Positions 3,478 through 61,323 of a DNA stretch of 64,000 nt are shown piece after piece. Under the pieces are notes generated by a model. The model did no database searches. It saw only the letters and a program-made list of their open reading frames with translations, and had not been told where the DNA came from. Location of the stretch: IMG/VR virus record IMGVR_UViG_3300035698_019895, positions 22,491 through 86,490 of that record. One strand, 5' to 3'. Every line of letters starts with the position of its first letter. The stretch's first letter is position 1. This DNA is from a virus. Position numbers and translations under genes: made by a program.

Positions 3478-3498
3478 TTGCAAGAGAAGGATATCAAT

Positions 3499-4278
3499 AT
3501 GTTAAAAATAGATTGTAAAAAAGAGACGGATAAAATAGTAAAATTTATCCAAGATACTTTCAAAGAAAAAGGATTTGAAAAAGCTGTCATTGGTGTCTCT
3601 GGTGGGTTAGATAGTGCTGTTATAGTTGCTTTATTAGTAAAAGCATTAGGCAAAGATAATGTGTGTGGTTACTATATGCCAGTAGAAACTCCTAAAGATT
3701 TTACAGGTGATGCTTATGTTGTTACTGATAGATTTAAAATTCATATGGACACTTTTGGAATTAAATCATTTATTGAGATGTTCACAACTACTTTTCTTGA
3801 CCTAGCTGCTTACAAAATTAGAACAGGAAATATTATGGCTAGAACTAGAATGATGATTTTATATGATAGGTCTGCTTTTCATAAAGCTTTAGTAGTAGGA
3901 ACAAGCAACAAGACAGAATTAACTTTGGGATATTTTACATTATATGGAGACAGTGCTTGTGCTTTAGAACCAATAGGACATTTATATAAAACACAAGTGA
4001 AACAGTTAGCAGAATATCTAGAAGTTCCTAAAAAAATTATAGAAAAAGCTCCAAGTGCAGAATTGTGGGAAGGCCAAACAGATGAAAACGAATTAGGTAT
4101 GTCTTATGAAGAAATGGATAAAATACTTTTTATAATTATGTCTCCTCAATTTAGATATTGTGATATAGAAACAATAGATTTATTAGGATATAAAGAATTA
4201 AGAGAAAAAATAGAAACACTGATAGACAACAATAGATTTAAATCAGAATCATCTAGAATAATAAGAGAACAATTATGA
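3499..4278 (+). CDS. nadE: NAD synthetase, ammonia-dependent type
   Basis: 259 aa. It carries the PP-loop SGGLDS (34-39) of N-type ATP pyrophosphatases and, further on, VVGTSNKTEL and YGDSACALEPIG, which are hallmark segments of bacterial NadE. It adenylates and amidates nicotinate adenine dinucleotide to NAD. No glutaminase domain is present, so ammonia is the expected donor. I chose ATG 3499 because AGAAGG (3485-3490) lies 8 bp upstream; an in-frame TTG at 3478 immediately after the vWA stop is possible but less likely. With the nicotinamidase it gives the first and last steps of deamidating salvage; the two middle enzymes are not in this window. Confidence 0.9.
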   Translation: MLKIDCKKETDKIVKFIQDTFKEKGFEKAVIGVSGGLDSAVIVALLVKALGKDNVCGYYMPVETPKDFTGDAYVVTDRFKIHMDTFGIKSFIEMFTTTFLDLAAYKIRTGNIMARTRMMILYDRSAFHKALVVGTSNKTELTLGYFTLYGDSACALEPIGHLYKTQVKQLAEYLEVPKKIIEKAPSAELWEGQTDENELGMSYEEMDKILFIIMSPQFRYCDIETIDLLGYKELREKIETLIDNNRFKSESSRIIREQL

Positions 4279-33720: not shown

Positions 33721-33808
33721 TGCGTGGTTGCGATAGCGGCAATTCGACCTGCCTGTAGAGCAGGTGCTCTTCGGAGCTTCGATGGTTCGAGTCCATCACT
33801 ACGCACCA
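33721..33808 (+). tRNA. tRNA-Tyr (GTA)
   Basis: Acceptor TGCGTGG/CTACGCA with one G-U pair, anticodon stem CCTGC/GCAGG, loop CTGTAGA giving anticodon GTA. Long variable arm (TGCTCTTCGGAGCT) as expected for Tyr. T arm GATGG-TTCGAGT-CCATC. CCA is encoded. Discriminator A. Confidence 0.9.
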
Positions 33809-33812
33809 TTAT

Positions 33813-33882
33813 TGGGAGGTAGTTTAATTAAAACGCCAATCGTAAGTGGAAATGTAACGTCAAATCGTTTCCCTCCCAGCCA
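33813..33882 (+). tRNA. Degenerate tRNA-like element
   Basis: A perfect 7-bp acceptor TGGGAGG/CCTCCCA, discriminator G and encoded CCA, but only 70 nt. The D region GTTTAATTAAAAC looks like an Asn/Thr-type D arm that has lost the GG of the D loop; the T arm is a 4-bp stem with a 6-nt loop (AACG-TCAAAT-CGTT); and the anticodon arm is weak (CCA with TGG around ATCGTAAG). It lies 4 nt after tRNA-Tyr and directly abuts tRNA-Leu. Probably a decayed tRNA or a minimal tRNA-like molecule; not counted as a functional tRNA. Confidence 0.45.
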
Positions 33883-33959
33883 GCGAGTGTAACAGAATTG
33901 GTATATGTACTCGGCTTAGACCCGAGGTTTTAGAGGTTCGACTCCTCTCACTCGTACCA
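33883..33959 (+). tRNA. tRNA-Leu (TAG), short variable arm
   Basis: Acceptor GCGAGTG/CACTCGT, anticodon stem CTCGG/CCGAG, loop CTTAGAC giving TAG. D arm AGAATTGGTA is leucine-like. The variable loop is only GTTTT (5 nt), whereas bacterial Leu tRNAs carry a long variable arm. T arm AGAGG-TTCGACT-CCTCT, discriminator A, encoded CCA. Confidence 0.82.
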
Positions 33960-33973
33960 AATGGAGAAAATAA

Positions 33974-34249
33974 ATGAGTAGAGAATATTTGCTGAAAATA
34001 GATTTTGAAAAACACTATAAGAAAAAAGAATTAAGAGACTTTTTTATTAAATGGTGTGGTAAAGACCAGATATTTAAAATAGAGCCTGACTATGTAGTTG
34101 TAGAAATGGGATGCAGTAGTGGTTTAGATGCTGATGAATATATGCAAGAATTATATACTCAATTACAAGAACAAGGTTTTAAACTAGAAAAAGAAGATAT
34201 GCTATGTTGGAGTTTACATCCTGACAGAGCAATAAGTTTGGCGGAGTAG
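33974..34249 (+). CDS. Hypothetical protein ending inside a tRNA gene
   Basis: 91 aa. Strand-helix mix with EPDYVVVEMGCSSGLDADEYMQEL. The stop codon TAG lies in the 5' acceptor of tRNA-Leu(TAA), overlapping the tRNA by 10 bp. Function unknown. Its end may have been reshaped by tRNA insertion. Confidence 0.5.
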   Translation: MSREYLLKIDFEKHYKKKELRDFFIKWCGKDQIFKIEPDYVVVEMGCSSGLDADEYMQELYTQLQEQGFKLEKEDMLCWSLHPDRAISLAE

Positions 34250-34316
34250 TCCAACTGGCAGAGGCAACGGTCTTAAAAGCCGTAAAGTGAGGGTTCGAAT
34301 CCCTCTTCCGCTACCA
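34240..34316 (+). tRNA. tRNA-Leu (TAA), short variable arm
   Basis: Acceptor GGCGGAG/TTCCGCT with G-U at the first and last pair. Anticodon stem ACGGT/GCCGT, loop CTTAAAA giving TAA. Variable loop AAAGT (5 nt). T arm GAGGG-TTCGAAT-CCCTC, discriminator A, CCA encoded. Overlaps the end of the gene at 33974. Confidence 0.82.
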
Positions 34317-34344
34317 TTATTAAGTCTGAGAAAGAGATAAAAAA

Positions 34345-34473
34345 ATGTTATTAATTTTGGGAATAATATTAGTTATTTTAAGTTATTTTATGGCTTATTG
34401 GTCTGCATTAAAATATATTATCGGAGCTATAGGAACTGGTTTGATAATTGGATATTTGTTAAATTTTTTATAA
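34345..34473 (+). CDS. Membrane mini-protein between tRNA genes
   Basis: 42 aa, two hydrophobic helices (LLILGIILVILSYFMAYW and IIGAIGTGLIIGYLLNFL). It fills the gap between two Leu tRNA genes. No ribosome binding site of note, so moderate support. Confidence 0.4.
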   Translation: MLLILGIILVILSYFMAYWSALKYIIGAIGTGLIIGYLLNFL

Positions 34474-34479
34474 TAATAT

Positions 34480-34555
34480 GTGCGAGTGATGCAACGGCAG
34501 ACATGCTTGTTTCAAAAACAAGCTTTTATAGGTTCGAGTCCTATCTCGCATACCA
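34480..34555 (+). tRNA. tRNA-Leu (CAA), short variable arm
   Basis: Acceptor GTGCGAG/CTCGCAT, anticodon stem CTTGT/ACAAG, loop TTCAAAA giving CAA. Variable loop CTTTT (5 nt). T arm ATAGG-TTCGAGT-CCTAT, discriminator A, CCA encoded. Third Leu anticodon in this cluster. Confidence 0.82.
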
Positions 34556-34605
34556 ATAATGTAAAAAGATTTTGAATAGTAATTTTTTAACAGGGAAGGT
34601 AAAAG

Positions 34606-34824
34606 ATGAAAACAATAAACAGTGAAACCCTTGTCGGTGGACGTTATACAACTCATGATTGTGAAGTAAATATTTTTGAAATTCTGAAAGATGTTGATGC
34701 AAGAATATCAAAATATGGACTCGAAATTGTTCTAAAAGATTATAGTGGCATTGACTATGATAAAGATATATATGGTCATCCTTCTTTCGATTTTTGGATA
34801 GAGAAAAGTGATAAAAAATTATGA
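34606..34824 (+). CDS. Hypothetical protein
   Basis: 72 aa with AGGGAAGG upstream. Short helical and strand stretches; TLVGGRYTTHDCEVNIFE then IVLKDYSGIDYDKD. No known family. Confidence 0.5.
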   Translation: MKTINSETLVGGRYTTHDCEVNIFEILKDVDARISKYGLEIVLKDYSGIDYDKDIYGHPSFDFWIEKSDKKL

Positions 34825-35030
34825 ATAAAACAGTTGTTAATTTTATAAGAACACAAATAAAAGAAGGATTGGCACAATTAGAAGATGAGAATAGATTACT
34901 TTTTAATCGCATGTATTCTCATGACAATTTAGAAAGACCAGTAAATGAAGTTGTAGATGATATGCCAGAAGAAAAACTTAATTGGGCTTTAACTCAAGTA
35001 GAGAATAGTTTGAAGAAAAAGGAGAAATAA
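34821..35030 (+). CDS. Small helical hypothetical protein
   Basis: 69 aa, ATGA overlap with the previous gene. Almost entirely helical and acidic in the centre (RTQIKEGLAQLEDENRLLF). It recalls phage proteins in early gene regions, but no function is known. Confidence 0.5.
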   Translation: MNKTVVNFIRTQIKEGLAQLEDENRLLFNRMYSHDNLERPVNEVVDDMPEEKLNWALTQVENSLKKKEK

Positions 35031-35611
35031 TGATTGAAGGAAATTGTTATTATTGTGACAAACCTGTAAATAATCTTGCAGGTAATCCAAATGAATGGGG
35101 AATACCATTATGTCATGAAGATGAACCTGGAAAAGTAAAAACTCATCATATTGGATGTGTTAGCGAAAGGTTAAGAGAGAATAAGAAAATGAAAAAAGCT
35201 CTTGCTTGGGCTGATGAAGAATTATCTCGTTTAAAGACAGGTAAAGAAAGTCAATTAGTAGAAGAAATAACCAAACTTCAAGAAGAAAAGAAAAAGTTTG
35301 ACAAAATATATGAAGAAGAAATGAAAACTGTGGGAGGAATTCTTAATGATAATGAAGAACTTCAAAAGAAAAATGAAGCATTAACGACAGAATTACATAG
35401 AGATTGTAAACTTACTTGTTGGGAAATGCAACAACTTCGTAAAACTATAGAACCTTTTAATAATAGTATGAAACAAAATGAAGAATTGAAAGATTGTTTA
35501 AAAGAAGCAGTTGACTTAATGGAAGATATTATTAAAGGAAAATATGAACCAGACAGTTTCACTACTCAACCATGGAAAAAGATTTTAATGATAGAAGAAG
35601 AATCTAAATGA
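35030..35611 (+). CDS. Protein with N-terminal zinc site and long coiled coil
   Basis: 193 aa. N-terminal CYYC (residues 5-8), then CHED and HHIGC, a likely zinc-binding module. Residues 55-150 are a continuous charged coiled coil (VEEITKLQEEKKKFDKIYEE). Dimeric or oligomeric. Similar architectures occur in phage proteins of unknown role. Confidence 0.55.
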   Translation: MIEGNCYYCDKPVNNLAGNPNEWGIPLCHEDEPGKVKTHHIGCVSERLRENKKMKKALAWADEELSRLKTGKESQLVEEITKLQEEKKKFDKIYEEEMKTVGGILNDNEELQKKNEALTTELHRDCKLTCWEMQQLRKTIEPFNNSMKQNEELKDCLKEAVDLMEDIIKGKYEPDSFTTQPWKKILMIEEESK

Positions 35612-35841
35612 AAGAAGCTATTTTAAAAGTATTACAAGAATTTAATGAAGGAAAATGGGGATATTATATTAAACCAATTGATAATAATACAAATATGATA
35701 ATGTATATCTATGATGAAAATGGGATAAAAGAAACCAATACAAAAGAATGGATGAAAAAACAAGGATTGAATCCAGAAAAAATAGATTTTGGTAAAGTGA
35801 TTGAAGAATATAAACGAGTAGGGATAATAACGGAAATATAA
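35608..35841 (+). CDS. Hypothetical protein
   Basis: 77 aa, ATGA overlap with the previous gene. Alternating strands and helices (GYYIKPIDNNTNMIMYIYD). No known motif. Confidence 0.45.
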   Translation: MKEAILKVLQEFNEGKWGYYIKPIDNNTNMIMYIYDENGIKETNTKEWMKKQGLNPEKIDFGKVIEEYKRVGIITEI

Positions 35842-36332
35842 TGAAAATAGGTTTAGACTTTCACGGAGTAATTGATAAATATCCTAATTTATTTAGAATA
35901 ATAACTAGTGGATTCAATATCACTGATGGACGTTGGATAAAGAATGTTGAAGTTCATATAATTACTGGATGTAGAAAAAAAGATGTAGAACAATTCTTAC
36001 AAGACCATGATATTTATTATACTCATGTTTATTCTTTAACTGATGAATTTCTAAAACACAAAGTACCTTATAAAATAGATGAAAATGGAAATCCCTCTTT
36101 TAAAGAAGCATTATGGAATACAGCTAAAAGTTTATATTGTGCTAGTCATGATATAGATATAATGATAGATGATTCAGAGATTTACGGTCAATATTTTGTT
36201 ACTCCTTATATATTATTTAAAGAAATAAAATCTGACTTTATTCCAAAAGAAATACAAGAAGGATTAGAAGATGCTAAAAAAGGTAAAGTAATAAGAGTAA
36301 AAAATATAAAGAAATTTTTGAGAGATTTATAA
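35841..36332 (+). CDS. HAD-like protein
   Basis: 163 aa. N-terminal DFHGVID (residues 6-12) in place of the usual DxDxT, IITGCRKKDV as motif II, and IMIDDSEIYGQY as the final motif. The second motif-I Asp is His, a variation seen in phage HAD-like proteins, so phosphatase activity is uncertain. ATGA-style overlap with the upstream gene. Confidence 0.65.
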   Translation: MKIGLDFHGVIDKYPNLFRIITSGFNITDGRWIKNVEVHIITGCRKKDVEQFLQDHDIYYTHVYSLTDEFLKHKVPYKIDENGNPSFKEALWNTAKSLYCASHDIDIMIDDSEIYGQYFVTPYILFKEIKSDFIPKEIQEGLEDAKKGKVIRVKNIKKFLRDL

Positions 36333-36333
36333 A

Positions 36334-36513
36334 ATGAAGAAAAGAAAAAGATTAAGAACATATGAAGTATGGTATGAACCTGACCCTATGCAGGATAGTA
36401 TAGAAGTAAAAGCATTTTCTACAAGAGGTGCTAAGAAAATTGCTATGGAACAAGAAGACCTTGATGAATATCAGATAGAAAGTGTAAATTTAAAAAGGAC
36501 TAGGAGAAGATAA
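36334..36513 (+). CDS. Small basic hypothetical protein
   Basis: 59 aa. Very basic ends (MKKRKRLRTY and KRTRRR) around an acidic centre. Shares its final A with the next start (TAATG). Function unknown. Confidence 0.45.
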   Translation: MKKRKRLRTYEVWYEPDPMQDSIEVKAFSTRGAKKIAMEQEDLDEYQIESVNLKRTRRR

Positions 36514-36743
36514 TGGCAAGACCAATAGAACCAACTCCTATATTATATGGTGAAGATGCAAAGAGATTATTAAGAGATGTTGCAGAAGTAAATAAAAAAT
36601 TAGAAGACCCTATATATAGAAAAAAAGCAAAAGCTCATTTAGACTATTGTGAACAGCTTTATTTAAAGTTTTTTAGGAAACTAAAAACTTCCAGGAAGGG
36701 CCATCCGATAGCTGGCGACGGATGCTGTCTTGAAAACAGTTAG
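36513..36743 (+). CDS. Conserved phage-type protein whose 3' end runs into tRNA-Ser
   Basis: 76 aa. The opening ARPIEPTPILYGEDAKRLL matches a small family seen in phages and bacteria. The last 16 codons lie inside tRNA-Ser(TGA), and the stop TAG is in the tRNA (overlap 50 bp). The tRNA may have been inserted into the gene's 3' end. Function unknown. Confidence 0.5.
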   Translation: MARPIEPTPILYGEDAKRLLRDVAEVNKKLEDPIYRKKAKAHLDYCEQLYLKFFRKLKTSRKGHPIAGDGCCLENS

Positions 36744-36784
36744 CTGTAACAGGCGTATAGGTTCGACCCCTATCCCTTCCGCCA
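36694..36784 (+). tRNA. tRNA-Ser (TGA)
   Basis: Acceptor GGAAGGG/CCCTTCC, anticodon stem CTGT/ACAG, loop CTTGAAA giving TGA, long variable arm AGCTGTAACAGGCGT as expected for Ser, T arm ATAGG-TTCGACC-CCTAT, discriminator G, CCA encoded. Abuts tRNA-Arg with no spacer. Confidence 0.88.
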
Positions 36785-36861
36785 ATCCCTGTAGCCCAAT
36801 CGGATAGGGCATCAGATTTCTAATCTGAACACTATAGGTTCAAATCCTATCAGGGATGCCA
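36785..36861 (+). tRNA. tRNA-Arg (TCT)
   Basis: Acceptor ATCCCTG/CAGGGAT, anticodon stem TCAGA/TCTGA, loop TTTCTAA giving TCT (reads AGA). T arm ATAGG-TTCAAAT-CCTAT, discriminator G, CCA encoded. AGA is the common Arg codon in this AT-rich region. Confidence 0.9.
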
Positions 36862-36937
36862 ATGCCTATAGCTGAAATGGAACAGCATCTGACTACGAAT
36901 CAGAGCAATGTAAGTTCGACTCTTACTAGGCATACCA
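36862..36937 (+). tRNA. tRNA-Arg (ACG)
   Basis: Acceptor ATGCCTA/TAGGCAT, anticodon stem TCTGA/TCAGA, loop CTACGAA giving ACG. T arm GTAAG-TTCGACT-CTTAC. Discriminator A, CCA encoded. No spacer to the preceding tRNA. Confidence 0.88.
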
Positions 36938-37013
36938 GGTGACTGTAGTGTAATGGTTAGCATATTTGACTGTGACTCAAATGGTATGGGTTCGAATCCC
37001 ATCGTTCACCCCA
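36938..37013 (+). tRNA. tRNA-His (GTG)
   Basis: Anticodon loop CTGTGAC giving GTG, stem TTTGA/TCAAA. The 5' end GG provides the extra G at position -1 opposite C73, as in His tRNAs. Acceptor has one C-T mismatch and one G-U pair. T arm ATGGG-TTCGAAT-CCCAT, CCA encoded. A Thg1-like gene starts 49 bp later. Confidence 0.85.
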
Positions 37014-37031
37014 TAAACAAAAGGAGAAATA

Positions 37032-37070
37032 ATGAAATCAGGATTAACAATTACAGGATTTAATGAGTAA
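37032..37070 (+). CDS. Possible 12-codon leader peptide before thg1
   Basis: AAAGGAG at 37020-37026 is followed by ATG 37032 and MKSGLTITGFNE to TAA. The Thg1-like start (37063) lies inside its last codons. Either a coupled leader or a chance mini-frame. Very short, so weak support. Confidence 0.3.
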   Translation: MKSGLTITGFNE

Positions 37071-37851
37071 ATTAGACGGTTTGGCTATTGGTGATAGAAT
37101 GAAGAGATATGAAAAAGTATCTGAATTTGTATTATCAAGACGAATTCCAGTAATAATTCGCATAGATGGAAGAGCATTTCACACTGTTACTCGTAAACGT
37201 TTTGGTAAGAATTGGTCTATGGAATTTGTAGAACAGATGATAGAAACAGCTAAGACAGTTATGACTGATATACAAGGATGTAACTTTTGTTACTCTCAAT
37301 CTGACGAAATAAGTTTTCTTCTGACAGATTATACTACTATACGAACAGAAGCTTGGTTTGGATATGATATTAGAAAACTTATATCTATATCTGCTTCTTT
37401 AGCAAGTTCGGTATTTTCTAGATTATACGGTAAAAATGTATGTTTTGATAGTAGAGCTTTTTCTCTTCCTCAAGATGAAGTATGTAATTACTTTATTTGG
37501 AGACAAGTAGATGCTACTAGAAATGCGATACAAATGGCAGGAAGAGAATATTTTTCTCACAAGCAACTAAATGAAAAAAGTTGTAATGAAATACAAGAAA
37601 TGCTCTTCCAAGAAAATAATATAAATTTCAATGATTATCCTGTAGTTAGAAAAAGAGGGTTTTCTATAATAAAACAATTTGAACATCAAAAAGACTTTGA
37701 TGAAACTATTCAGAAGAATGATAAATTATATAAAGCTGAAAGTGGTGAAGAAGTAAAAAATAGAAAGAAACCATATGCTGATTTAGAGATTCCTATATTT
37801 ACTCAAGATAGAAACTATATAAAACAGTTTGTAAACGTAAGAGAGGATTAA
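37063..37851 (+). CDS. thg1: Thg1-like tRNA(His) guanylyltransferase
   Basis: 262 aa. IIRIDGRAFH (residues 31-40, metal Asp) and SQSDEISFLL (78-87) are the catalytic motifs of Thg1/TLP enzymes, which add nucleotides 3' to 5' at tRNA 5' ends. Bacterial and phage members usually repair truncated 5' ends rather than add G-1. The gene sits directly after tRNA-His, the classical substrate. Confidence 0.88.
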   Translation: MSKLDGLAIGDRMKRYEKVSEFVLSRRIPVIIRIDGRAFHTVTRKRFGKNWSMEFVEQMIETAKTVMTDIQGCNFCYSQSDEISFLLTDYTTIRTEAWFGYDIRKLISISASLASSVFSRLYGKNVCFDSRAFSLPQDEVCNYFIWRQVDATRNAIQMAGREYFSHKQLNEKSCNEIQEMLFQENNINFNDYPVVRKRGFSIIKQFEHQKDFDETIQKNDKLYKAESGEEVKNRKKPYADLEIPIFTQDRNYIKQFVNVRED

Positions 37852-37854
37852 AAG

Positions 37855-37989
37855 ATGAATAAAAACAACTTATTACCAATTTGTGGAAATTGTGGATGTA
37901 GAAGATATACTGCTTGTAAATGTAGAAAACCTACACCTAATTCGATATCGCAAAAAAGAAAAAATTCCAGAGGTAGCTCAACTGACTGA
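37855..37989 (+). CDS. Small zinc-binding protein ending in tRNA-Met
   Basis: 44 aa with AGAGGA upstream. CGNCGC and CKC motifs (PICGNCGCRRYTACKC) suggest one zinc site. The last seven codons and the TGA stop lie inside tRNA-Met (23 bp overlap). Confidence 0.45.
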   Translation: MNKNNLLPICGNCGCRRYTACKCRKPTPNSISQKRKNSRGSSTD

Positions 37990-38042
37990 GCAGCACACTC
38001 ATAATGTGCCATATGTAGGTTTGAATCCTGCCCTCTGGACCA
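37967..38042 (+). tRNA. tRNA-Met (CAT), elongator-like
   Basis: Acceptor CCAGAGG/CCTCTGG with a paired C1-G72, so it is not a bacterial initiator. Anticodon stem GCACA/TGTGC, loop CTCATAA giving CAT. T arm GTAGG-TTTGAAT-CCTGC, discriminator A, CCA encoded. Could instead be Ile-CAT if the C is modified to lysidine. Confidence 0.78.
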
Positions 38043-38057
38043 AATAAAGAGATTAAA

Positions 38058-38642
38058 ATGAAAACAAATTATCTATTTTATAAAATTATGGACAAAAAGT
38101 TTCCTTCAATGGGAAAATGGTGGGTATTAGTTTTAAATACTGTAAAAAGATTATCTGATTATCAAGAAGTCCAATCGCAAAGAATGATAAACTCTTATGT
38201 TGATGCAAAAACTCAATTACGAAAAGGTCAACATGTAGAATATGAAGGATATGTTTTACTTAAAACATTAGAAAATAGAGCCAATAGAAAAACAATAGCT
38301 GATGATATGACTATTTTAAGTGAGGTTATGCAGACTCCTATGACAAACTTTTTTATAAATGGGGAAATACCTTTAATTAATTCTGTAGGTGGTTATAGAT
38401 TTTTAGATAAAACAGTAGAAGTACTTGAAAAACTTGAGAAAGACGAAATGGTTTGGCCAGATGATAATGATTTAAAGATTAAAGTTTCTCGATGGCCAGA
38501 AGGTGTACATTACTATGCCAAAGTTGGTAAATATGATGTACAAGATAAAGAAGGTAACGTAAAATGGAATACATCAAAACAAGCAAGAACAGAAGCTAAA
38601 AAATTCTTAAAGAGAATAAATAATGGGATTACTAGAAAATAA
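38058..38642 (+). CDS. Hypothetical protein
   Basis: 194 aa with GAGAT-type site upstream. Helical N-terminus (VLVLNTVKRLSDYQEVQSQR), basic C-terminus with KWNTSKQARTEAKKFLKRI. No recognised motif; soluble. Overlaps the next gene by 20 bp. Confidence 0.5.
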   Translation: MKTNYLFYKIMDKKFPSMGKWWVLVLNTVKRLSDYQEVQSQRMINSYVDAKTQLRKGQHVEYEGYVLLKTLENRANRKTIADDMTILSEVMQTPMTNFFINGEIPLINSVGGYRFLDKTVEVLEKLEKDEMVWPDDNDLKIKVSRWPEGVHYYAKVGKYDVQDKEGNVKWNTSKQARTEAKKFLKRINNGITRK

Positions 38643-38922
38643 AAAATTATATAATTCATTGTCTTTAAAGAAAAAGAAAGAAGCAATAGATTTTTTAAAA
38701 ACTTGGATACATAAAAACGATATTAAAAAAATAGATATTGCTATAAAGAAAGAACCTGAAAGTTGGTTTGCTTCTTATCATTTTAATTGGGGCATGGCGG
38801 TTAGAAATGCCTTAAGGACTGAAGGGTGTGGAGAAAAATATTTTGGTATAGATAATCTTGATGATATATATGTAGAGTTAGTAGAAGATGTCATAAAAAA
38901 TAAAAAAAGGAGTAAAATATGA
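38623..38922 (+). CDS. DUF6794-like protein
   Basis: 99 aa. Contains WFASYHFNWGMAVRNALRTEG followed by a negatively charged NLDDIYVELVEDV, a pattern (H..WGM..RN) of a small family related to immunity-like proteins. Function unknown. Overlaps both neighbours. Confidence 0.55.
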   Translation: MGLLENKKLYNSLSLKKKKEAIDFLKTWIHKNDIKKIDIAIKKEPESWFASYHFNWGMAVRNALRTEGCGEKYFGIDNLDDIYVELVEDVIKNKKRSKI

Positions 38923-39515
38923 CAAAGAAAATCGTACATCTCATGATAGCCATGTTTATGATTATTGCTATGACTTCACCTATATCTTTCGCAACAGAAA
39001 AATCATCCGAGGAAGTTATAATAGCTGACTTTAACAGTGGTATAAAGCCCAATAAGATAGGCGGTAACTTCGGAGCATGGGATAAAGACCCTGCAGATTT
39101 CTCACAAGGTTGTGAAGAAATATTTGACAGTAAGAATAGATATGGCTTACGTGGATTCTCAATCAAATTAGACTATGATGTTGATTCTGAGAAACCAGCT
39201 TATAATGGATTTTGGATGTTCTTACAAAACTTTGATGCATCAGAGTATGAAAGCATATCTCTATGGGTAAAAGGTGATAGCGATGGATATACAACTGTAT
39301 TTAAAATTGAACTCAAGAATGCCAAGAAGGAAGTAGGTCGTTACTATATAACAGAAGCAACAGAGAATTGGGTAGAATTTGTTATACCGCTGGAAGATTT
39401 CAGAGGAATAACAGACTTCTCAAGCATGACAGAGTTCGTCATTGTATTTGAAGATAGAGTTGTCTCAAACAAAGATGGCGCAATATATATAGATGATATT
39501 AAGTTTATAAAATAA
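38919..39515 (+). CDS. Exported protein with carbohydrate-binding-like domain
   Basis: 198 aa. Signal peptide (residues 1-26, KIVHLMIAMFMIIAMTSPISFA). The mature part has VIIADFNSG..., NGFWMFLQNFDASEYESISLWVKGDSDG and IYIDDIKFIK, the order of strands seen in CBM11/CIA30-like galactose-binding domains. It could bind cell-surface or extracellular glycan. No catalytic domain. Exported proteins are rare in phage genomes and this may be a captured bacterial gene. Confidence 0.65.
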   Translation: MTKKIVHLMIAMFMIIAMTSPISFATEKSSEEVIIADFNSGIKPNKIGGNFGAWDKDPADFSQGCEEIFDSKNRYGLRGFSIKLDYDVDSEKPAYNGFWMFLQNFDASEYESISLWVKGDSDGYTTVFKIELKNAKKEVGRYYITEATENWVEFVIPLEDFRGITDFSSMTEFVIVFEDRVVSNKDGAIYIDDIKFIK

Positions 39516-39525
39516 AGAGAGTATT

Positions 39526-39599
39526 CGAGGGTTAGCTCAATGGTAGAGCAGTCGGATGATAACCGACCAATAGAGGTTCAATTCCTTTACTCTCGACCA
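39526..39599 (+). tRNA. tRNA-Ile (GAT)
   Basis: Acceptor CGAGGGT/ACTCTCG with one G-U pair, anticodon stem GTCGG/CCGAC, loop ATGATAA giving GAT. T arm AGAGG-TTCAATT-CCTTT. Discriminator A, CCA encoded. Starts a third tRNA cluster right after the exported protein. Confidence 0.85.
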
Positions 39600-39675
39600 G
39601 GGCTCGTAGCGTAGTGGTTTACGCACCTGACTTTTAATCAGGCTTACGCAGGTTCGATTCCTGCCGAGCTCACCA
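39600..39675 (+). tRNA. tRNA-Lys (TTT)
   Basis: Acceptor GGGCTCG/CGAGCTC with one G-U pair, anticodon stem CCTGA/TCAGG, loop CTTTTAA giving TTT. T arm GCAGG-TTCGATT-CCTGC, discriminator A, CCA encoded. No spacer to tRNA-Ile. Confidence 0.92.
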
Positions 39676-39765
39676 GGAAGGTTGGCTGAGTGGTTTAAAG
39701 CGGTGCTCTGCTAAGGCATTGAGGATTTATCTCCTCCGCAGGTTCGAATCCCGCACCTTCCGCCA
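39676..39765 (+). tRNA. tRNA-Ser (GCT)
   Basis: Acceptor GGAAGGT/ACCTTCC, anticodon stem TGCT/GGCA (with a G-U), loop CTGCTAA giving GCT. Long variable arm (GAGGATTTATCTCCTCC). T arm has one mismatch. Discriminator G, CCA encoded. No spacer to tRNA-Lys. Confidence 0.85.
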
Positions 39766-41617: not shown

Positions 41618-41922
41618 AACCAATTAAATTCAGAGCTTGGGATGGTTTGAGAATGACTACAACAGGAATAATGTTTAATAATTCTAAAGGTATTCTTGAA
41701 ACTATAAAAACTTCTATTCTTATGCAATACATAGGTCTAAAGGATAAAAATAATGTTGAAATCTATGAAGGGGATATAGTAAAAGACCATACAAACGGTG
41801 CTATTATAGAAGTGACATTTGACCCAAGACTATTATCTATCCTTACAACCTTTGATAATGTGCGTGAAGTAATAGGAAATATACACGAAAATTCAAAATT
41901 ATTAGAGGACACAAATGAGTAA
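41614..41922 (+). CDS. YopX-family protein, third copy
   Basis: 102 aa. [28 protein letters not shown] and [12 protein letters not shown]. Shortest copy; it lacks part of the variable middle. 8-bp overlap with the dehydratase gene. Tandem copies suggest amplification under selection. Confidence 0.82.
41732..41771 (+). repeat. 40-bp perfect direct repeat, copy 2 (YopX core)
   Basis: Partner of 41343-41382; together they lie 389 bp apart in tandem YopX genes. Confidence 0.85.
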
Positions 41923-42970
41923 AACTGCATTAATCACCGGAATTACCGGACAAGACGGTTCTTATTTAGCCGAAATTCTTCTCGCTAAAGGTTATACTGT
42001 TCATGGAGTTATTCGCAGAGCAAGTACAGTAAATACCGAAAGAATAGATAATCTTTTTGACCCCAAAAGTTACCAACATATTCACTATGGAGATTTAGCT
42101 GATGGTTTAGATGATTTATTATATGAGATACAACCAGATGAAATATATAATTTAGGCAGTATGAGCCATGTTAGAATTAGCTTTAATATTCCAGTTTATA
42201 CTGCTAGAGTAACTGGTGTAGCTGTTCTAAGAATATTAGAAGGAATCAGAAAATTAGGTCTACAGAAAAAAACAAAATTCTATCAAGCATCTTCTTCAGA
42301 AATGTTTGGAATCACTAAACCTCCCCAAAATGAAGGCTCACCTTTCTTACCAGTAAGTCCATACGGTTGTGCTAAATTATTTGGATATCATATTACTCGT
42401 ACATATAGATTAGGTTATGGAATGTTCGCAGCCAACGGAATTTTATTCAATCATGAGAGCCCCAGAAGAGGAGTTAATTTTGTTACTAGAAAAGTAACTA
42501 GGGCTGCTGTTAGAATTAAATTAGGAATCCAAGATAAGCTTAAACTAGGTAATCTAGATGCCCTAAGAGATTGGGGATATGCTAAAGATTATATGGAAGC
42601 AGTACATCTAATACTACAACAAGATGAACCAGATGATTGGGTAGTAGCGACTTGTGAATATTATAGTGTAAAAGCATTTGTAGAAAAAGTGTTCCAATAT
42701 TTAAATTTAGACCCTTGGAAATATATAGAAATAGATGATAAATATAAAAGACCGAATGAAGTTCCAGCTTTATTAGGAGATAGTACAAAAATAAGAACTA
42801 AATTAGGATGGAAACCAAAAGTAGATTTTGACCAACTTGTTAAAATGATGGTTGATGAAGATATGAAATTAGCTCGAAAAGAATTGAATGAAACTATGTA
42901 TCCTCCTACAGTTCCAAGTAAAGAAGATTCAGGTGAAGGAGAAAATAAACAAAATAAGGAAGTGAACTGA
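41915..42970 (+). CDS. gmd: GDP-mannose 4,6-dehydratase
   Basis: 351 aa. NAD(P) loop [12 protein letters not shown] (9-20), SSSEM (127-131), catalytic YGCAK (Tyr150, Lys154), [10 protein letters not shown] and [11 protein letters not shown] near the GDP-sugar site. It converts GDP-mannose to GDP-4-keto-6-deoxymannose, the precursor of GDP-fucose, GDP-rhamnose and GDP-perosamine. The aminotransferase at 49534 makes perosamine the best candidate product; no epimerase-reductase for fucose is visible. Confidence 0.9.
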
Positions 42971-45766: not shown

Positions 45767-46195
45767 ATGGCAGAAATAATACACGAAGGACAAGTATATG
45801 CTATTCATGATACTATCAATAGTATAGAACCTAGATTTCCTATGGTATCTGAAAATCAAGAAGGCAGTAAATGGTATGGAGAAGATAGAGAAGCAATGCA
45901 AGCTTCTAGAATGTGTTATAATAAACATAAAATATTTAGAGCACATACTCATATTCTTAGACCTAGATTAAATAATTACACTCAAGAATGTTTTATAATT
46001 CATAAAGGAGTTATTAAATTAGATATTTATTCGCAAGATAAAGAACTTTTAGCTAATATAGTGGCTAGAGAAGGAGATATAGTAATATTGTATCGAGGCT
46101 ATCATGCAGTAGAAGTTTTAGAAGATGATAGCATATTCTACGAAATAAAAAATGGACCGTTTACTACTGTAGATGAGGATAAAACTTATTTATAA
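45767..46195 (+). CDS. WbuC/cupin-like glycan protein
   Basis: 142 aa. FRAHTHILRPR and GYHAVEV place the cupin metal residues. It resembles the cupin WbuC/RfbC-type proteins in O-antigen clusters. Possible sugar epimerase, isomerase or binding role. First gene of the glycan island. AAAAGGAG upstream; the next gene overlaps its stop. Confidence 0.65.
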   Translation: MAEIIHEGQVYAIHDTINSIEPRFPMVSENQEGSKWYGEDREAMQASRMCYNKHKIFRAHTHILRPRLNNYTQECFIIHKGVIKLDIYSQDKELLANIVAREGDIVILYRGYHAVEVLEDDSIFYEIKNGPFTTVDEDKTYL

Positions 46196-46809
46196 TGAAT
46201 TATAATAAGTTTAACAAATATTTTTCGAGAAAAAAAATAGAAGATTTAATAAATAAATATCTTGATAAAAATCCAGATAAAGAAACAGGTACTTATGTAG
46301 ATATAGGTGCTAATCACGCATTTAAAAATAGTAACACTTTCTATTATTATGTTAGAGGTTGGAGAGGATTATTAGTAGAACCTTACGCTAGATATAAACA
46401 AATTAGTAACAAAATCAGACCTCAAGATATATTTGTATCTAAAGCTATAATGGATTATGATGGAAAAATAGAAATGGATTATAATGTAATTGCTTCAAAA
46501 AAAATTAGAAAAGCAACACAGAAAAAATATAAACATGATAAGTATATAGCAGATTGTATAACTATGAATACATTGATAAAAACTTATCCAACATTTTCTA
46601 AACCAGATTTTGTAAGTATAGATATAGAAGGTAGTGAGAAAAGAGCTTTATCGAAATGCAACTTTAATATTTTCAAACCAAAGCTTATTTGTATAGAATA
46701 TAAAACTAAGAAATATAATTTTAGAAAAGATTGGGAACATTTTCTTTTACCATATTATGAATTAAAAGATACTTTAACAGTAGACGCAATTTATTTAAGA
46801 AGGAAATAA
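46195..46809 (+). CDS. FkbM-family methyltransferase
   Basis: 204 aa. SAM-binding motif VDIGAN (35-40) and SIDIEGSEKRAL match FkbM methyltransferases. Probably methylates a sugar hydroxyl. A related copy follows directly. Stop overlaps the cupin gene by sharing its last base. Confidence 0.82.
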   Translation: MNYNKFNKYFSRKKIEDLINKYLDKNPDKETGTYVDIGANHAFKNSNTFYYYVRGWRGLLVEPYARYKQISNKIRPQDIFVSKAIMDYDGKIEMDYNVIASKKIRKATQKKYKHDKYIADCITMNTLIKTYPTFSKPDFVSIDIEGSEKRALSKCNFNIFKPKLICIEYKTKKYNFRKDWEHFLLPYYELKDTLTVDAIYLRRK

Positions 46810-46811
46810 AA

Positions 46812-47453
46812 ATGAACGAATCAACAACTATAAAAGGAAAAAAATATTTTGCTCAAAACGAAGAAGAAAAAATTATTAATAAATATCTTGATAAAGACCC
46901 TAATGATTCAATTAAGGGTACTTACATAGATATAGGAGCAGGAGACCCAGTAATGATTAACAGTACTTATTATTATTACTGGAGAGGATGGAATGGTATA
47001 TTAATAGAACCCCATCCAAGATATGCAAAAAGAATTAAAGAAATGAGACCTAGAGATATTTTTCTACCAATAGCTATTCATAATTATGATGGCGAAGTTG
47101 AAATGTATGACACAGCTACTATTGGAAGTTATATAGGAGACGATTATAAATCTAGACTTCAAAAAAAGAAAGATTTATTTATTGTTCAATGTATGACTAT
47201 AAATTCTCTAATAAAAAAATATCCAGATTTCAGTGAACCTGATTTTTGTAATATAGATATAGAAAGTAATGAAGACAAAGCATTAGAAAAATGTGATTTT
47301 ACTATTTTTAAACCCAAAGTGATTTGTATTGAAGACTTTGGTACTTATAGAGGTATTAAGGATGAAAGATTCAAATGGAAACATTATTTAACTCCTTTTT
47401 ATGATTTAAAAGAAATGGTAATTAATAATCTATTTTATGTAAGGAAAAAATAA
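46812..47453 (+). CDS. FkbM-family methyltransferase, second copy
   Basis: 213 aa. IDIGAGDP (39-46) and NIDIESNEDKAL. Same N-terminal KYLDK motif as the first copy. Divergence suggests different acceptor positions. Both lie at the head of the sulfotransferase pair. Confidence 0.82.
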   Translation: MNESTTIKGKKYFAQNEEEKIINKYLDKDPNDSIKGTYIDIGAGDPVMINSTYYYYWRGWNGILIEPHPRYAKRIKEMRPRDIFLPIAIHNYDGEVEMYDTATIGSYIGDDYKSRLQKKKDLFIVQCMTINSLIKKYPDFSEPDFCNIDIESNEDKALEKCDFTIFKPKVICIEDFGTYRGIKDERFKWKHYLTPFYDLKEMVINNLFYVRKK

Positions 47454-48119
47454 ATGCGAAGTGACCCTCATTTTTATTGGATGCCGAGAAGTGGTGGAAC
47501 ATTTATATGGCAAGTGTTAATTAGACTTTTCCCACTTGAAAGTAAAATGCATGAATTTAAAAAAACTTCTGCTCCTATTATAATGAGTTATAGAGACCCC
47601 AGAGATATGACAGCTTCTTATTTAAGAATTATGTTTGGAAAATTTGATGAAAATAGAAATTTAATTTATATACCTCCAACTCAACAACAAATTAAGTTAA
47701 TGGCAGAAGGAGTGCAAAATCAATATAAAGTTTTTAATAAATATAAAAAATTCTATAAAAATAAAAAAAATATATTGTGGTTAAAATATGAAGATTACAT
47801 AAATGATATTAATATTCTTTTTGATAAAATAGAAAAATTTATGGATATGAAAGTTCCACCAGAAAGAAGAGAAGAAATTAAAAGAGAAACTAGTATACCA
47901 ATTAACAAAGCTATCGCTAACAAAGTTACTCATTGGAGAGATGATGCAAAATGTGAATTTGACCACTTTGATAAAAGTAGTAGAATACATATACATCATA
48001 TTTATGATGGAGAATATAAAGGATGGAAGAACTATATTCCTGAGCAATATCATAATTATTTAAATAAATTGTTAAAAGAAGAAATAAAGGAGTGGGAATA
48101 CAAATATGAGAGAACCTGA
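47454..48119 (+). CDS. Sulfotransferase-like protein
   Basis: 221 aa. 5' phosphosulfate loop PRSGGTF (11-17), 3' phosphate loop SYRDPRDMTASYLR, and WLKYEDY. These match the PAPS-dependent sulfotransferase fold. Would transfer sulfate to a sugar hydroxyl or amine. Starts exactly after the FkbM stop. PAPS must come from the host. Confidence 0.8.
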   Translation: MRSDPHFYWMPRSGGTFIWQVLIRLFPLESKMHEFKKTSAPIIMSYRDPRDMTASYLRIMFGKFDENRNLIYIPPTQQQIKLMAEGVQNQYKVFNKYKKFYKNKKNILWLKYEDYINDINILFDKIEKFMDMKVPPERREEIKRETSIPINKAIANKVTHWRDDAKCEFDHFDKSSRIHIHHIYDGEYKGWKNYIPEQYHNYLNKLLKEEIKEWEYKYERT

Positions 48120-48768
48120 ACCATATTTTTACTGGACACCAAGAAGTGGTGGAACGTTTGTATGGCAAGTGTTACATAGACTAATAGTAGTATATGAGAC
48201 AAGTCATAGTTTTATAGAAACAACAAGGCCTATAATAATTAATTATAGAGACCCTAGAGATATATTAACATCTTATTTAAGAATTCATTTTGGAAAATTT
48301 GATGAAAATAAAAACTTAATTTACATTCCTCCAACAAAAGAACAAATAGATATTAAAATATTTAGAGTTCAATTAGAGTTTAAAACTCTTAATGAATATA
48401 AAAGGTTTTATGAAAATAGAAAAGATATATTATATCTTAAATATGAAGATTATATAAGTGATATTAATATTCTTATTGATAAAATAGAAAATTTTATGAT
48501 GCTTCCAAAAGTTCCACTGGAAAGAAGAGCAGAAATTAAAAGAGAAACTTCTATTCCTGTCAATAAATCTATTGCTAATAAAGTTAAACGTTGGAGGACT
48601 GATATAAAATGTGAATTTGATAATTATGAACCAGTTACTAGAATACATATGCATCATATCTATGATGGACAATATAAGGGGTGGAAAAATTATATTCCAA
48701 AACAATATCATAATTATATAAATGAAGAATTGAAACAAGAAATAAAAAATTGGGGATATGAAATATGA
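48106..48768 (+). CDS. Sulfotransferase-like protein, second copy
   Basis: 220 aa. PRSGGTF (12-18), NYRDPRDILTSYLR and YLKYEDY. Close paralogue of the previous gene over its whole length, including C-terminal HHIYDG.YKGWKNYIP. GTGGGA upstream and a 14-bp overlap. Tandem duplication with likely change of specificity. Confidence 0.8.
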   Translation: MREPEPYFYWTPRSGGTFVWQVLHRLIVVYETSHSFIETTRPIIINYRDPRDILTSYLRIHFGKFDENKNLIYIPPTKEQIDIKIFRVQLEFKTLNEYKRFYENRKDILYLKYEDYISDINILIDKIENFMMLPKVPLERRAEIKRETSIPVNKSIANKVKRWRTDIKCEFDNYEPVTRIHMHHIYDGQYKGWKNYIPKQYHNYINEELKQEIKNWGYEI

Positions 48769-50640: not shown

Positions 50641-50869
50641 ACATGCTAATCAAAATTTTCAAAGAATAATGGCATCTTTAAGTTTTGATAACCATTCATT
50701 AGGAGGACGTTATAAAAAAGGAGATAAAGCCGGAATTATTATAGGACATTGGCACGAAGATGGTAATACTTTTGAAATAATTTGTCCAGAACAATTACGA
50801 GATAGTTTAATAGAGTTACTAAATAATATACATTTGTTAGAATTTAGAAATGGAGAGAATCAAGAATGA
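50627..50869 (+). CDS. Hypothetical protein
   Basis: 80 aa with GAGGAG before the start. Basic Lys-Gly loop RYKKGDKAGIIIG, then HWHEDGNTFEIICPEQL. Soluble. Sits between aminotransferase and LicD, overlapping both. Confidence 0.45.
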   Translation: MKIIEHANQNFQRIMASLSFDNHSLGGRYKKGDKAGIIIGHWHEDGNTFEIICPEQLRDSLIELLNNIHLLEFRNGENQE

Positions 50870-51462
50870 TAGTACCTTTAAAAAGTCCTTATCACTTACC
50901 TTGGGAAAGAGGAACACGAGAAAAAGGTGAGAATATGGATTTAGGAGCTATGACTAGTAATATGTTAGTTTTTAAAGAAGTTATGGATAGACAAGGTATT
51001 CCTTTTATATTAATTTTTGGTACTTTGTTAGGAGCTATTAGAGAGAAAGGATTTATTGTTTATGATTCTGATGCAGATGTAGCTTGTTATGCTCAAGACC
51101 ATAAAAAAATTGGTAAAGTAATTAAAATTTTAGAATCGAAAGGTTTCTATATTCCAGATAAAAACGAATGTCCTTTACATGACCATTTCTTTGCTAGAAA
51201 AGGAGAAAGAATTGATATATGGTGGTTTGATGAAATAGATAATGATTGGATATATGATAAATATATAAGATATAATAAAAAATATTTCGATAATCCAATA
51301 TCTATAGAATTTTTGGGACAATCTTTTCTTGTTCCCAATGAGCCAGAAAAATTTCTTGAACTAACTTATGGAGATTGGAAAACTCCTAAACATATAAATG
51401 ACGAAAAAAGTAGTTATATCATAGACAGAACACAGCCGGACGGAAAACATAAACCAGGATAA
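50866..51462 (+). CDS. LicD-family protein (copy 1)
   Basis: 198 aa. FGTLLGAIREKGFI (51-64), then YDSDADV (66-72) with the metal Asp residues, and YGDWKTPK at the end. LicD-type enzymes transfer phosphocholine or other phospho-groups from CDP-alcohols to glycans. It is paired with the nucleotidyltransferase at 51830 that could make the CDP-alcohol. ATGA overlap. Confidence 0.8.
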   Translation: MIVPLKSPYHLPWERGTREKGENMDLGAMTSNMLVFKEVMDRQGIPFILIFGTLLGAIREKGFIVYDSDADVACYAQDHKKIGKVIKILESKGFYIPDKNECPLHDHFFARKGERIDIWWFDEIDNDWIYDKYIRYNKKYFDNPISIEFLGQSFLVPNEPEKFLELTYGDWKTPKHINDEKSSYIIDRTQPDGKHKPG

Positions 51463-51829: not shown

Positions 51830-52252
51830 ATGAAGAAAATATATACTTATGGCGCCTTTGATTTGCTCCATCCAGGGCATATAAAACTTTTAGAAGGAGC
51901 CAGAAAATTAGGAAATTATCTAATAGTTGGTATAGTAGCTGATGAAGCAATCAAAGAATTAAAAGGAAATGATAGACCGATTCAGTCACAAGAAGATAGA
52001 GCTTACATCATAGAAAGCTTATCTTGTGTTGATGAAGTTATATTACAGGATGGATATGACCCCTCTCGTTATTTGAAAGAATATGAAGGAAAAATTGATT
52101 TTCTAGTTAAAGGAGATGATTGGGAATATATTCCAGGCACAGAAACAATCCATGAATTGGGTGGAGTATTAATTAAATTATCATATAGCAAAGAATATTC
52201 AACAAGTAGTATGGTAAATAAAATAAAAAATAATGATAATTCTGTCGAATAA
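51830..52252 (+). CDS. Cytidylyltransferase-like protein (copy 1)
   Basis: 140 aa. GAFDLLHPGHIKLL (8-21, with His14, Gly16, His17) is the HxGH catalytic motif, followed by KGDDW and STSSMV. Matches TagD/GCT and the adenylyl/cytidylyl domain of HldE. Activates a phospho-alcohol or phospho-sugar with CTP or ATP. AAAGGAAA upstream. Confidence 0.82.
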   Translation: MKKIYTYGAFDLLHPGHIKLLEGARKLGNYLIVGIVADEAIKELKGNDRPIQSQEDRAYIIESLSCVDEVILQDGYDPSRYLKEYEGKIDFLVKGDDWEYIPGTETIHELGGVLIKLSYSKEYSTSSMVNKIKNNDNSVE

Positions 52253-52763
52253 TTTAAAAGGTAGAATACCTATTCCAAAAGATATTGTAATAAGAGTTAA
52301 TATGGCTTGGATTAAAACTCAACTAAAATTGGATAATATTATAAGAAATATTAAACAAGATATATTTTTAGATTTTCCTAAAGGAAGAACTAAACCTCCA
52401 ATGCCTATTTTAAAGATAGAAGATGCTTTAGTTATGATGAAAAGATATAATCATATTAAATATTTTGCTATTTCTAATGCTGAAGATATAAGTACAATGA
52501 TATATTTACGAGAGGTAATTCCAAAACACATAACTATAGTGCCTAAAATAGAAACAATGTTAGGAATAACAAATTTTGAAATCTTGATGAAAACTGCTAA
52601 TAGTAAAATTGCAATGTTAGATAAAGAAGATTTATATCTAGATGTAAAAAGGAGAAATAGTGCATTTAATATTTTTGTTCGAAAAATAAGAAAAATATGT
52701 AAAAAAACAAATATTATATTATTAGAATTACAAGGAGTAATTTTTGAAGAAAAACATAAATGA
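52233..52763 (+). CDS. Pyruvate-kinase-like minimal TIM-barrel domain
   Basis: 176 aa. The order of segments tracks pyruvate kinase: VIRVNMAW (like MRLNFSH), DIFLDFPKGRTKPP (like LLDTKGPEIRT), then directly KYFAISNAEDISTM, ITIVPKIETMLGITNFEIL (KIE with conserved Lys and Glu) and MLDKEDLY (metal Asp). The cap B domain and the C-terminal domain are missing. It may bind phosphoenolpyruvate or a keto acid. Overlaps genes on both sides, between a nucleotidyltransferase and LicD. Confidence 0.6.
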   Translation: MIILSNNLKGRIPIPKDIVIRVNMAWIKTQLKLDNIIRNIKQDIFLDFPKGRTKPPMPILKIEDALVMMKRYNHIKYFAISNAEDISTMIYLREVIPKHITIVPKIETMLGITNFEILMKTANSKIAMLDKEDLYLDVKRRNSAFNIFVRKIRKICKKTNIILLELQGVIFEEKHK

Positions 52764-53373
52764 AGAAGTAAAATTCACCTCTAAAAATCCTATCTGGGAA
52801 CATGGACAACTGGGAGGTTTAGGAAGACCTATAGATAGAGATGTTCTATTTAGAAATTTAATAGAATTGCGTGATATATTAAACAAACATAAAATCAAAT
52901 GGTGGTTATCACATGGCACTATGTTGGGAGCTTATAGAGAAAATAATTTCATAGCTTGGGATGATGATGCTGATATAGGATTAGATATGAAATATCGAGA
53001 TAGAATTTATCCAGCTATAGAAGAAGCTAGAGAAGCAGGTTTCTTCGTACCACCAGAAGCTATAAAAGATACAATAGTATTACCCAGTCTTTGTCCGTAT
53101 TATGACACTGTTTTTATTAGAGATGGAGAAAAAATAGAGGGTTGGTGGTATGATAGAAAGATAGAAAAAGATGGAGCTTATTATATTTATGATGAAGTAA
53201 GAGAAGGAAATAAACTTAAACATGAAGCAAAATATTATGATATATTAAAAACTTTTGAATTCAGAAAAAAAATATTTCCAATACCAAATCATCTATATGA
53301 TTGGATTGTCATGATGTATAATGAAGATTGGGATATTCCAAATAAAAAGAAAAAATATAATTGGCAAGGATAA
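52744..53373 (+). CDS. LicD-family protein (copy 2)
   Basis: 209 aa from TTG 52744 with AAGGAG at 52733-52738. SHGTMLGAYRENNFIAWDDDADIGL (56-80; shorter here: GTMLGAYRENNFI, DDDAD) carries the catalytic acid cluster. Member of the same family as the gene at 50866 but divergent. Likely a second phospho-group transferase. Confidence 0.8.
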   Translation: MKKNINEEVKFTSKNPIWEHGQLGGLGRPIDRDVLFRNLIELRDILNKHKIKWWLSHGTMLGAYRENNFIAWDDDADIGLDMKYRDRIYPAIEEAREAGFFVPPEAIKDTIVLPSLCPYYDTVFIRDGEKIEGWWYDRKIEKDGAYYIYDEVREGNKLKHEAKYYDILKTFEFRKKIFPIPNHLYDWIVMMYNEDWDIPNKKKKYNWQG

Positions 53374-60882: not shown

Positions 60883-61323
60883 ATGAAAGAAAAATTAGTA
60901 TGTATTTCTGGAGGATTTGACCCTATTCATATTGGACATATTAGATATATTCAAAAAGCTGCACAGTTAGGTACAAAATTATGGGCAATATTAAATACTG
61001 ACGATTTTTTGTTGAGAAAAAAAGGTTATGTTTTTATGTCTCAATCTGAAAGAAAAGAAGTTTTATGGAATATAAAAGGTATAGATAATGTAGTTTTATG
61101 TATAGATAAAGATAATACTGTTTGCAAAACATTAGAAATGATAAAACCTAATATTTTTGCGAAAGGTGGAGACAGAACAAATAATAATATTCCCGAAGCA
61201 TCTATATGTGAAAAAATAGGAATAAAAATGTATTTTGGTATAGGTGGTTATAACAAACCACAATCTAGCTCTTGGCTTATTAATAATTTATCAATGTATT
61301 TAAAGGAGAAAAAAAATATATGA
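60883..61323 (+). CDS. RfaE/HldE-type nucleotidyltransferase (copy 2)
   Basis: 146 aa. GGFDPIHIGHIRYIQ (10-24) with His16 and His19, FAKGGDRT, NIPEASIC and the end SSSWLI. Stronger resemblance to the adenylyltransferase half of HldE than copy 1 at 51830. Activates a phospho-sugar. Overlaps the second GT10 gene by 4 bp. Confidence 0.82.
   Translation: MKEKLVCISGGFDPIHIGHIRYIQKAAQLGTKLWAILNTDDFLLRKKGYVFMSQSERKEVLWNIKGIDNVVLCIDKDNTVCKTLEMIKPNIFAKGGDRTNNNIPEASICEKIGIKMYFGIGGYNKPQSSSWLINNLSMYLKEKKNI

Follow-up and report, generated by a model that had tools for sequence, protein, structure and literature searches.

A pyruvate-kinase-like barrel encoded with nucleotidyltransferases and LicD-type transferases: a possible undescribed route for phospho-group tailoring of surface glycans in uncultivated viruses and bacteria

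What would a virus do with a protein resembling pyruvate kinase (PK), encoded between a nucleotidyltransferase (NTase) and a LicD-family phosphotransferase? This question is raised by the window, the whole stretch of 64,000 nucleotides analysed here, which belongs to a virus record of 86,490 bases. An earlier note read the middle protein, here called PKL, as a stripped PK-like domain whose gene overlaps both neighbours, and the open reading frames do lie this way, with 20 bp shared in each pair (NTase/PKL and PKL/LicD) and an AAGGAG stretch preceding the TTG start of LicD. The features concerned are the following:

41915..42970, + strand: GDP-mannose 4,6-dehydratase-like NAD-dependent dehydratase of the glycan island, assigned from its sequence, with a homologue near PKL in viral contig L003
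49534..50640, + strand: DegT/DnrJ/EryC1 aminotransferase (PF01041, E=2.9e-79)
50866..51462, + strand: second LicD-family protein, upstream in the same gene run (PF04991, E=1.6e-11), conserved in viral contig L004
51830..52252, + strand: HIGH-superfamily NTase, HldE-C/TagD-like, 140 aa (PF01467, E=2.4e-17; TIGR02199, 3.5e-35; TIGR01518, 5.4e-20; nearest solved families ECT, HldC, TagD and Fom1 CyTase)
52233..52763, + strand: PKL, predicted PK A-barrel lacking the B and C domains and strand 8, 176 aa (AlphaFold, Foldseek, invariant residues)
52744..53373, + strand: LicD-family phosphotransferase, 209 aa, TTG start (PF04991, E=6.6e-13; NF045866, 5.7e-14, below the NF045866 cutoff)
60883..61323, + strand: second HldE-like nucleotidyltransferase, not adjacent to PKL (PF01467, E=2e-12), 27% identical to the first

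In L003 the DegT/DnrJ/EryC1 aminotransferase gene immediately precedes the NTase, and in L037 it immediately precedes the NTase-PKL pair. Elsewhere in the window, positions 46195-48768 hold tandem pairs of FkbM-like methyltransferases (46195 and 46812) and Sulfotransfer_1-like proteins (47454 and 48106), probably duplications, positions 18051-20315 a ribonucleotide reductase reading frame with an apparent intein-like insert and an HNH-type homing endonuclease motif, and positions 33722-39765 a cluster of 11 tRNA genes on the + strand.

Regarding the fold, PKL lies below the PF00224 cutoff and gives only sub-threshold matches in Pfam (PK, 0.019; HpcH_HpaI, 0.015); a profile of three PKL sequences reaches PDB pyruvate kinases at 0.004, and one of 13 sequences finds the true PKs of bacterial genomes at 1e-4 to 1e-11. 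The AlphaFold model, built with 44 sequences, has seven strands, a pLDDT of 96.6 and a pTM of 0.91. The comparison with PEP/pyruvate-binding barrels proposed in the earlier note was run with Foldseek against the PDB, and ranks 1-20 are all pyruvate kinases (E 1.2e-6, probability 1.0), among the matches being a liver PK with its B domain deleted. A search of BFVD returned no viral fold matching PKL. The TM score is 0.64 on the query, with seven of the eight barrel strands in common, and strands 1-7 follow the same order as in the A domain of PK (PF00224). The loss of the B and C domains is thus borne out, and strand 8 is missing too. As modelled, PKL is a barrel derived from the A domain of PK, in both fold and ancestry.

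Meanwhile, the alignment places most of the PK active site in PKL. Eight residues are invariant across 45 PKLs, and seven of them match PK positions (numbered as in the rabbit enzyme) as follows: R21 corresponds to Arg72, N23 to Asn74, D47 to Asp112, R52 to position 117, K105 to Lys269, E107 to Glu271 and D133 to Asp295; K54, at a position held by Lys or Arg, corresponds to Arg119. The KIE (K105-I106-E107) and metal-binding Asp (D133) landmarks seen initially are therefore kept, with K105, E107 and D133 invariant. The eighth residue, D130, takes the place of Ala292, beside the carboxylate site of PK, in 45/45 sequences. PKL and its fused relatives are set apart from PK by this Asp, by a Pro two residues past Asp112 and by Lys or Arg at 117, although a positive residue at position 117 is also a trait of K+-independent PKs. 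Ser76 of PK is Ala in PKL. The Thr327 proton relay and the ARGD carboxylate loop of PK are not maintained in the family; Thr occupies the relay position in only four of the 45 sequences, the basal ones, and Leu is mostly found otherwise. Taken together, these residues suggest a site for handling phosphoryl groups or enolates with an altered substrate pocket. The invariant Asp at Ala292 indicates that PKL may act on something other than a PK-type carboxylic acid, so that PK-like substrate binding should not be assumed, and the pyruvate or glycerate origin first proposed for the group finds no support.

The conserved site also weighs on the idea that PKL is an inactive, structural partner that stabilizes or regulates the NTase. 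Its small size, the loss of three structural units and the frequent pairing with NTases of different families would suit such a role; however, a pseudo-enzyme would not usually keep its phosphate, metal and Lys ligands unchanged across 45 divergent sequences, and we consider this decidedly improbable. It is extremely improbable that PKL is a minimal glycolytic PK or a random truncated PK fragment, for which its homology to PK speaks, as the genes sit in glycan loci, form a family at about 40% identity and carry the family-specific A292D, the 'DxP' and the Arg at position 117. The glycolytic role was rejected because in some genomes with PKL (G006, G010 and G012) a longer PK gene is matched as well.

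As a single-sequence query, the window PKL had no match in viral contigs, genome contigs, phages or plasmids, and its first relatives were reached through searches with the NTase and LicD. These gave two viral contigs with the NTase-PKL-LicD trio in the same order, L004 (PKL 66% identical) and L003 (39%), and further PKL relatives were then collected through alignments, amounting to 37 loci of uncultivated viruses and 10 bacterial or archaeal loci (candidate-phylum MAGs, one Planctomycetes MAG and one Pacearchaeota MAG). Named phage and plasmid collections contained no PKL, even with two other queries. Stand-alone PKL is rare, occurring in 1/380, 2/237 and 1/246 genomes of three phylum surveys (about 1% or less), counts that include the starting genome of each survey. 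Several loci have particular arrangements. In L004, homing-endonuclease-like genes (1112-1810 and 3403-4104) stand beside the trio, where the window has a different reading frame or a DnaN gene; in L065, L066, L067 and L069, a related protein of about 300-340 aa comes after PKL or after its neighbour, the one in L066 being at most weakly similar to DUF4915/Kelch; in L070, a transketolase is split in two, with PKL between the halves; and in L009, L014, L036 and L050, a small PQ-loop membrane protein, perhaps a substrate transporter, is beside or between NTase and PKL or their transferase.

The survey of other loci proposed in the earlier note showed that the association of PKL with NTases recurs widely. 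Neither of the outcomes named there as refuting it, an unrelated fold or a lack of co-occurrence elsewhere, was seen. An NTase of the HIGH superfamily is located within 300 bp and on the same strand in 31/47 PKL loci, compared to 42/824 other genes (5.1%), a background drawn from genes of the same loci, including ones beside the same NTases, the loci being not fully independent; the other 16 loci have no NTase within 300 bp. Three kinds of partner are seen: HldE/TagD-like enzymes in 21 loci, mini NadM-like enzymes of 112-120 aa in 10 loci, all from one clade of marine viral PKLs, and ATP-sulfurylase-like enzymes. The pairing is both tight and exchangeable, as seen in two sister PKLs (node 100/98), where L013 has an HldE-like NTase with TagF and L016 an ATP sulfurylase with TagF. 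The mini NTase carries a conserved ESVNYGRDVGY stretch that recalls the GRDHAG of ATP sulfurylase, and the notion that it works only with PKL was rejected, as it also occurs alone or with APS kinase.

Concerning the NTase of the window, a PF01467 protein with its HxGH present, the initial assignment as a CTP-type enzyme could not be established. It falls below both equivalog cutoffs, with 120.9 against 181.5 bits for TIGR02199 (HldE) and 71.7 against 165.4 bits for TIGR01518 (TagD). Its best NCBIfam score is for the HldE type, which uses ATP, rather than TagD (3.5e-35 vs 5.4e-20), the nearest solved structures are a mix of CTP and ATP enzymes, and it lacks the Arg of RTxGIST. The window LicD, in turn, exceeds the PF04991 gathering score (49.7 vs 22.6 bits). 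LicD neighbours do recur, with a LicD or TagF-type transferase near 18 of the 21 HldE/TagD-like loci, but LicD is not the sole outlet, as there are TagF-like and CDP-alcohol transferases too. A CDP-alcohol phosphatidyltransferase is near the fusions L095 and L097, described below, and near the PKL locus L033/L072 (confirmed by Pfam for L095 and L072). The NTase-PKL-transferase set is a real and conserved module, and apparently an undescribed one; no description of a PK-like protein in polysaccharide loci was found in the open-access literature.

The origin of PKL can be approached through five Omnitrophota genomes, in which a PK barrel is fused to a PF12804 NTase domain (L034/L073, L095, L096, L097 and L098). 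All five lack the C domain; the B domain is absent in L034/L073, L095, L096 and L097 and present in L098, which matches PF00224 over its whole length. A fusion that still keeps its B domain suggests a stepwise reduction of PK, and the simplest reading of the series, from full PK to A+B fusion, A fusion and then PKL, is one of successive domain losses, as far as can be judged from the sequences. The fused NTase domain has, among plasmid matches, AepX, a fusion of PEP mutase and NTase, as its nearest relative; it may be inactive, as its sequence no longer shows the GxGxR loop and only L098 retains the catalytic Lys.

This relationship leads to the PEP mutases, which provide the phosphonates used in surface tailoring and in most cases are fused to an NTase of the PF12804 or PF01467 class (PMC6697681). 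The PK-like barrels described here pair with the same two NTase classes. Like AepX/PntC and Fom1, they combine a PEP/pyruvate-type barrel with such an NTase, in a surface-tailoring setting and with a LicC-LicD-like logic; unlike them, the barrel is of the PK type instead of the isocitrate-lyase type, consistent phosphonate genes are lacking and the loop of the fused NTase is degenerate. Could PKL then be a PK-derived analogue of PEP mutase, making a precursor with a C-P bond for activation with CMP or AMP? The fusions are built like AepX and Fom1, PKL retains the Lys, Glu and Asp by which enolpyruvate is stabilized, and in L012 PKL adjoins a PEP mutase and a phosphonopyruvate decarboxylase-like gene. 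However, the EDKxxxxxNS motif of PEP mutases (PMC6697681) is absent from the PKL sequences, genes for phosphonopyruvate decarboxylase and AEP aminotransferase are not consistent neighbours, and the PEP mutase of L012 is encoded separately, on the opposite strand, making a phosphonate product quite improbable.

PK itself is able to phosphorylate glycolate and L-lactate as a side activity (PMC6380167). Together with the parallel of the PEP mutase-NTase pairs, this makes PKL as a supplier of a small phosphorylated compound, X-P, the best explanation of the module. PKL retains the residues that handle phosphate, Mg and the enolate, and has shed the B domain that clamps ADP, the C domain used for regulation and the final strand of the barrel. 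It would produce X-P in one of two ways, with X phosphorylated from PEP or ATP, or with PEP rearranged. The NTase beside it would convert X-P to NDP-X, and LicD, or elsewhere a TagF-like or CDP-alcohol transferase, would then move phospho-X onto a sugar of a surface glycan or glycolipid. In favour of this reading are the PK fold and active-site residues invariant in 45 sequences, the frequent NTase and LicD/TagF neighbours, the exchange of partners between L013 and L016, the Omnitrophota fusions, and the precedents of PK side activity and of F420 synthesis; the order of the reactions, what X is, which nucleotide activates it and which acceptor receives it are what we infer. We give even chances to PKL making X-P, the NTase activating it and a LicD/TagF-type transferase attaching it to a glycan. 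The earlier outline, in which a phospho-group is made, nucleotide-activated and attached to a glycan, fits the genomic context; its use of CTP and of a pyruvate- or glycerate-derived group is not supported. Against X-P supply count the possibly inactive fused NTase domain, the change of Ala292 to Asp and the 16/47 loci without a near NTase.

A different role would be in sulfate activation, where PKL would link PEP chemistry to an adenylyltransferase, either ATP sulfurylase or the mini NTase. It could, for instance, regenerate ATP or drive the formation of APS, and the glycan would then be modified by sulfation. A sulfurylase is found beside the PK-like genes of L009, L016, L033, L073 and L095-L098, including all five fusions; in L009, PKL belongs to a complete sulfate-activation operon with Sat-CysC, CysQ and a sulfotransferase, and the mini-NTase clade of ten marine viral PKLs has APS kinase or Sulfotransfer_2 genes, with no LicD or TagF nearby. 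This clade, L009, L033 and L095-L097, whose sulfurylases in the last two cases keep the Gln of the QTRN sulfate motif, fit sulfate activation at least as well as X-P supply. On the other side, the 21 HldE/TagD-like loci are mostly accompanied by LicD or TagF instead of a sulfurylase, and the sulfurylases of L016, L073 and L098 have His for the conserved Gln, that of L016 as if its substrate had changed. Moreover, three marine viruses (L085, L086 and L088) carry APS kinase and a mini NadM-like NTase with no PKL. On balance, a sulfate-linked role seems unlikely.

Compared to known pathways, the X-P route resembles those of LicC/LicD for phosphocholine and TagD/TagF for glycerol phosphate in having an NTase and a LicD or TagF-type transferase in polysaccharide loci, but no LicA-type kinase is seen, an extra PK-like enzyme is present and the NTase is closer to HldE. 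In F420 synthesis, PEP is nucleotide-activated before transfer (PMC6450877); there too an NTase (FbiD/CofC) activates a PEP-type three-carbon phospho-acid and a transferase (FbiA/CofD) then moves the product, although the proteins are unrelated, the acceptor is another and no PK-like enzyme takes part. With respect to PK, PKL differs in its missing parts and in its genomic role in glycan loci.

The recurrence of the trio in other uncultivated viruses and bacteria makes it look like an undescribed route for placing a phospho-group on surface sugars. The broader proposal, of a surface-tailoring pathway with a PK-derived enzyme that evolved by stepwise domain loss, present in candidate-phylum bacteria and their viruses and served by three NTase kinds, is tentative, with chances somewhat below even. 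If true, a second branch of PEP/pyruvate-type enzymes would join PEP mutase, the representative known so far, in tailoring the surfaces of cells and viruses through nucleotide activation, and the paring down of a central enzyme of glycolysis to a core of 176 residues with a new function would be documented as a series. The series of full PK, PK A+B-NTase, PK A-NTase and stand-alone PKL offers a way to test what the minimal catalytic core of PK is, and many genes of uncultivated bacteria and viruses that lack annotation gain a function to look for.
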